A DNA stretch of 21,343 nucleotides from positions 1 to 21,343 of IMG/VR virus record IMGVR_UViG_3300025327_000169, one strand, 5' to 3'. This document shows, piece by piece, positions 363 through 682 of the stretch. The position numbers and the translations under genes were made by a program. The DNA comes from a virus. Below the pieces are notes generated by a model. The model ran no database searches. It had not been told where the DNA came from and worked only from the letters and a program-made list of their open reading frames with translations. Each line of letters opens with the position of its first letter. Positions within the stretch are counted from its first letter, which is position 1.

Positions 363-682
363 AGTAAACCCGCCAAGCCTCTGTCATTGGGGCATGCGCC
401 ACTGTGGCGGGTGGTCAAGGCAGGTGGCAGCGAGGGCGATGTGTCACTAAGGCGTAGTCTGAGGTTCTCCCATGGGGAGTCAATTCGCCGGGCGGTTGGC
501 GACAGATACACCGCAACATCAGACAGTCGAGCGACCTGGCCCACCTGCCGAAATATAACCCACCGGAGCGGCTCACGGGGTGTGGCCCAGACTGGTTGTG
601 CTGATCACACGTAATCAGGCCGTGAGCATCAGAGAGGTTGTCCAGCCACCGAGGAGCAGGGTTAAAATCCCCCCGCTCCGGT
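363..682 (+). ncRNA. Candidate large structured RNA with three stem-closed domains
   Basis: No good ORF fits here, but long perfect complements nest without conflict. Domain 1: ACCCGCCA (368-375) pairs with TGGCGGGT (405-412), enclosing GCCTC/GGGGC (377-381/389-393, one G-U). Domain 2: GGCAGGTGG (419-427) pairs with CCACCTGCC (541-549), enclosing CTCCC/GGGAG (467-471/475-479) and TCGCC/GGCGA (485-489/498-502). Domain 3: ACCGGAGCGG (562-571) pairs with CCGCTCCGGT (673-682); abutting it is CTCACGG (572-578) with CCGTGAG (620-626), enclosing CTGAT/ATCAG (601-605/614-618), and a T-arm-like GGG-TTAAAAT-CCC lies at 659-671. The G-U pair and the TATAAT at 351 favour the plus strand. The 3' helix ends 22 bases before the holin-like ATG, so it could be a free ncRNA or a 5' leader. 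I do not recognise the family. Confidence 0.6.

Follow-up and report, generated by a model that had tools for sequence, protein, structure and literature searches.

A conserved, uncatalogued RNA domain in the candidate late-operon leader of a phage probably infecting Chloroflexota

The window, by which we mean the whole stretch of DNA analysed, is an IMG/VR virus fragment of 21,343 nt from an uncultured phage; a further contig (L007) matches it at 99.9% identity over 12 kb. A region of predicted RNA structure lies between a putative promoter segment and the ribosome site of a short holin-like ORF (Table 1). The holin assignment stems from a weak PHROG match (E 0.0097). Next come an ORF at 902–1183, a phosphoesterase-like ORF at 1194–2054, so labelled for its D-x-H / GD / GNHE-like conserved motifs with no family match behind the label, and a GH25 lysozyme; beyond these are the small and large terminase, the portal and the major head protein. 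Because terminase relatives in genomes are mostly found in Chloroflexota, the host is probably a member of that phylum. Two ORFs at 10374–14067 carry many repeated SVSDAVSVSDTATV-like segments.

The first-pass annotation had noted a TATAAT before the first helix and a last helix ending near the holin-like gene's ribosome site. Both were found, the latter helix ending 9 nt 5' of AGGAGGG. No −35 element or sigma-70 promoter pair was recognised or scored at 330–362, and transcription would start at about 363–365. No terminator was found on the + strand of window positions 1–1300, which include the interval from the RNA to the ribosome site. At 130–158 a perfect consensus promoter (TTGACA-17-TATAAT) points left, and 189–212 forms a strong hairpin; both are conserved in the near-identical phage L004.

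Table 1 Features of the putative leader and its surroundings in the window
Feature	Position	Strand	Basis
Promoter segment, −10 TATAAT at 352–357	330–362	+	Segment identical in L004 despite different upstream DNA
P1 hairpin domain, inner part variable	368–412	+	Comparison with L004
P1 outer stem, perfect, 8 bp	368–375/405–412	+	
P2 closing helix, 5' arm (perfect 9-bp helix with 541–549)	419–427	+	Three-phage comparison
Invariant motif CAGCGAGGGCG	428–438	+	Identical in window, L037 and L146
Semi-conserved GRNNNGNYANTNAGR, then CGTA at 453–456	439–456	+	Alignment A7
P3 helix, 5' arm, pairs with 519–524	457–462	+	Window/L037 comparison
P3 interior, variable	463–518	+	Unconserved among three members
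P3 helix, 3' arm	519–524	+	Window/L037 comparison
Invariant motif AGTCGAGCGACCTGGC	525–540	+	Identical in L037; common to L146
P2 closing helix, 3' arm	541–549	+	Three-phage comparison
3' domain, P4 enclosing P5 and small hairpins	562–682	+	Near-identical block in L004, both neighbours swapped
P4, perfect, 10 bp	562–571/673–682	+	
P5, perfect, 8 bp	571–578/620–627	+	
Hairpins within 3' domain	601–618; 636–647	+	Predicted
T-loop-like hairpin GGG-TTAAAAT-CCC	659–671	+	Predicted
Shine-Dalgarno AGGAGGG of first late gene	692–698	+	Sequence
Holin-like ORF, 61 aa, ATG at 705	705–890	+	Unrelated 99-aa ORF in its place in L004

An inspection of the helices claimed for this region gave a mixed picture. 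All four perfect helices are present, the last being 8 bp long where 7 had been reported. The accompanying estimate that a 9- or 10-pair match would rarely arise by chance was mistaken: perfect helices of at least 8 bp whose arms lie no more than 150 nt apart number 76 in the window, and many reach 9 bp or more, so a lone match of 9–10 bp is unremarkable. The argument from clustering had some merit, since nowhere else do such helices cluster as densely as these four within 320 nt (about 1 of 2,100 sliding frames across the window). The minimum free energy (MFE) of the stretch is ordinary (z = 0.04; 49 of 100 shuffles as good). In the ensemble of the full leader the 9-bp helix (0.97) and the 10-bp helix (0.89) are favoured, whereas the two 8-bp helices, P1 (0.004) and P5 (0.08), are disfavoured. 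For P1 the energy model prefers another local fold, and its probability rises to 0.55 when the hairpin is folded alone. As such helices are common and the folding energy is ordinary, the window sequence alone could not settle the structure. The proof of structure comes from the comparison with relatives, and the statistical argument is unsupported.

The homologue search proposed by the first-pass annotation was decisive for 419–549. A covariance model built from the window only had a single match in 736 kb, positions 212–327 of contig L037 (51.9 bits, E 1.3e-6, covariance-model E-values being rough), from a phage whose terminase is 44% identical to that of the window. L037 carries GGCAGCGAGGGCG, CGTAG and AGTCGAGCGACCTGGCCC in the same order and at similar spacing. 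One 16-base motif was scanned over 2.9 million viral contigs, giving 17 stretches, among which the window/L037 model picked one new member, L146 (1769–1909, minus strand, 44.4 bits, E 7e-8, also rough). Its host element is a Mu-like phage (gpT), where the domain is closed by 24 pairs and sits between phage genes outside any recognised late leader. L146 was selected by the 3' motif, so conservation of that motif there is no independent evidence; what L146 contributes independently is the closing helix and the 5' motif.

The closing helix P2 keeps 9 of its 9 pairs in the window, L037 and L146, with 7 of the 9 changed on both sides. P3 keeps all six pairs between the window and L037, two of them double changes, and was not alignable in L146. 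Over the three members every cell scored was paired (39/39), against 34–46% in controls with the partners slid by 1–3 columns; alignment A7 was fitted to the model, which biases it towards that model, but P2 is ungapped at its ends and the window/L037 result is independent of A7. The sequence of P2 is entirely different among the members and its length ranges from 9 to 24 bp, whereas some 30 bases of the core stay the same: CAGCGAGGGCG, CGTA and AGTCGAGCGACCTGGC are fixed across the three phages. By these comparative data, 419–549 is a conserved base-paired structure in which a closing stem of free sequence surrounds an invariant core. Judging from the predicted folds, CAGCGAGGGCG may pair with GCGACCTGGC as a mismatched helix. 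The multi-domain structured RNA proposed before the lysis genes is thus supported, and it is demonstrated for this domain, where the pairing is preserved by compensatory changes. The domain MFE z-scores of the three members are −1.3, −0.5 and −4.1, so energy alone would miss two of the three.

Protein-coding sequence or chance pairing would be a wholly different account of the same conservation. One + frame is open in both the window and L037 and holds both invariant motifs, and the MFE is ordinary. In L146, however, a stop interrupts this frame and the motifs are not in frame with each other, which excludes a shared protein for the three members, and the double-changed closing pairs far outdo the slid controls. 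We regard this account as barely credible. The earlier statement that the stretch has no credible gene is borne out by the frame test for the central domain.

Attempts to enlarge the family yielded several candidates that were rejected. With the leader as BLAST query, phages and plasmids yielded short chance matches only, mostly in tail genes. Three model searches, each of about 400 Chloroflexota genomes in overlapping sets and with filters that lose weak matches, revealed no other member; the match L151 (E 0.002 in one of 396 genomes) falls within a glycosyltransferase-like gene, with degraded motifs and a broken P3. Fourteen of the 17 motif stretches, and likewise L123, L124 and L126–L131, share the motif but nothing else of the domain and seem to be coding or fortuitous matches, and the match in L057 falls in a coding ORF. 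In L110 (2844–2861), CCAGCGAGCAACCTGGC resembles parts of both invariant motifs joined without the interior and was unscored by the model.

Rfam searches (cmscan) gave no family match for the RNA regions of the window, L037 and L146, apart from the tRNA of L037, and SNORD66, BjrC1505 and ryfA were rejected as identities with scores far below threshold. We conclude that the central domain is, on comparative grounds, an uncatalogued RNA family occurring in at least three different phages; the literature on phage structured RNAs was covered by a keyword search of openly licensed papers, and a published match elsewhere is possible.

Comparison with near relatives showed how the region is assembled. 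L004 and L005 have terminases 99% identical to that of the window. In L004/L005 there is no difference in the promoter segment or the outer stem of P1; the inner part of P1 is replaced, and 417–551 gives way to 36 nt that fold into a hairpin of 15 bp (z −5.9). Positions 552–700 are kept at 97% identity, with the following gene swapped for an unrelated one, and the only real change among them lies in a predicted hairpin loop (GGG-GTGTGG-CCC versus GGG-ATA-CCC). This pattern of kept and swapped segments indicates that the leader is built of exchangeable modules. The central domain is, judging from these alignments, exchangeable between near-identical phages, and its absence from L004 marks it as accessory, unneeded for late expression in general.

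The helices of the 3' domain are invariant in relatives, and P1, P4, P5 and the T-loop-like hairpin are without covariation support; within the domain the energy model favours P4 and disfavours P5 and the small hairpins. Its long stem, and a T-loop-like hairpin whose 3' strand abuts that stem, resemble tRNA and tmRNA, but it lacks a CCA end, its T-loop lacks C56 and its T-stem has three pairs only. ARAGORN called no tRNA or tmRNA gene in the window, and neither ARAGORN nor Rfam recognised a cloverleaf, or a tRNA-like domain whose T-loop and acceptor are canonical. A pattern search for the 3' domain returned near-identical phages only, with none in genome contigs. A T-loop-plus-acceptor descriptor gave useful leads along with many chance matches and was not used as proof.

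Some related phages carry tRNA-like RNAs of their own. The L037 RNA has its own promoter (TTGACA-17-TACAAT) and is followed by tRNA-Trp. In L031 (4117–4201; also in L032 and L050) a cloverleaf with a canonical T-arm, rejected as a tRNA by ARAGORN and Rfam, stands 20 nt 5' of an ORF's ribosome site. L109 (2743–2927) shows a cloverleaf-like leader, then an intrinsic terminator and a holin-like gene related to that of L004. L064 (4085–4216) encodes a 132-nt tmRNA-like RNA (Rfam tmRNA, 54.2 bits, E 1.5e-18) that misses about 300 model positions, so that the usual tag and pseudoknots could scarcely fit, if at all, and lies directly 3' of a TTGACA-17-TACAAT promoter. It is suggestive that tRNA-like features recur near the late-gene start in some related phages, possibly as one phenomenon.

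These RNAs bear on whether the window encodes a free-standing ncRNA that is released from the late transcript by processing and works in trans, with the tRNA-like fold as its processed end. The tRNA-like and tmRNA-like RNAs at a similar place in related phages and the separate promoter and tRNA-Trp of L037 would suit such an RNA, which might act in the way that GOLLD or ROOL may. Membership of their class would imply a stand-alone abundant transcript forming an RNA-only cage. The window RNA is likewise phage-encoded and multi-domain, and its L037 relative precedes a tRNA; it differs in its length (320 nt versus about 650–800) and in lying in leader position before a holin-like gene. The first-pass annotation could not match it to GOLLD or ROOL, and cmscan confirmed this for the window and its relatives even at permissive thresholds. 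GOLLD and ROOL often lie near tRNAs; the level of GOLLD increases at lysis, and its linker can contain tRNAs (PMC12286853). Against a trans-acting RNA stand the lack of a terminator or tRNA gene at the 3' end of the window RNA, the lack of an Rfam match and the dispensability of the central domain in L004. We consider such an RNA rather unlikely, although it is the strongest competitor of the leader reading preferred below.

The contrast between a stem of free sequence and length and a constant core also raises the prospect of a ribozyme that cleaves itself, or of an aptamer that binds a ligand, as the identity of the central domain. Neither a site of cleavage nor a gene tied to a ligand stands out, however, and no metabolic gene is common to the three genomic contexts. 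This assignment looks doubtful. A DNA-level element, namely a single-stranded-DNA hairpin serving as a packaging, replication or mobile-element site, would yield compensatory pairing too, and the domain does come and go between near-identical phages. A TnpB-like ORF (L146, 3351–4604, minus strand; PF07282, E 4.6e-18) lies about 1.4 kb from the RNA in the Mu-like phage. TnpB is confined to that record and absent from the 34-kb contig near-identical to the window, on which ground a TnpB guide RNA was rejected; the domain, moreover, sits between a promoter and a ribosome site. A DNA-level role appears very improbable.

The reading that we tentatively prefer, while granting it somewhat less than an even chance, is that 363–700 serves the late operon, which covers lysis and then packaging, as its structured 5' leader, with the central domain acting in cis. 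It is the simplest because promoter, RNA and ribosome site follow in order with no terminator among them. Transcripts would originate at the promoter near 352 and continue without a break into the holin-like gene. Three parts would make up the leader: P1 as a hairpin, a central stem open to exchange, and a 3' domain that stops just 5' of the ribosome site. The central stem here would carry the autonomous domain 419–549 of the new family. That domain may work in cis on the late transcript as it emerges; its simplest effect would be to render the elongating polymerase, or else the stability of the mRNA or the start of translation, permissive for the late operon.

In other phages, such as lambda with its pR'-tR' region, late expression is permitted by a leader that separates the late promoter from the first of the late genes. 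The window leader, like those of lambda pR'-tR' (Q antitermination) and HK022 put, lies between a putative late promoter and the lysis genes, and its relatives have a terminator. It differs, in a distinction drawn partly from general knowledge, in lacking a terminator and in being larger and more structured. A leader occupies the corresponding position in phages whose holins are related, and in the three checked (L109, L027 and L112) it ends in an intrinsic terminator 5' of the holin. These terminators suggest control of late-operon entry at the leader; in the leader of the window, where no terminator was found, a target for antitermination is not evident. The central domain could contribute by modifying the polymerase, by binding a protein or a ligand, or by catalysis.

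A broader proposal, which we hold to be speculative and on balance improbable, is that the domain represents a new autonomous RNA class (ribozyme, aptamer or polymerase-modifying), a module mobile between unrelated phages that joins late leaders with tRNA-mimicking 3' ends. L007, with the domain, and L004, without it, offer a natural experiment on its effect on lysis-gene expression, and the core, at about 130 nt, is short enough for direct in-vitro work. Few structured phage RNAs are known, and the domain would extend them by a structured family, so far uncatalogued, whose invariant core is compact.
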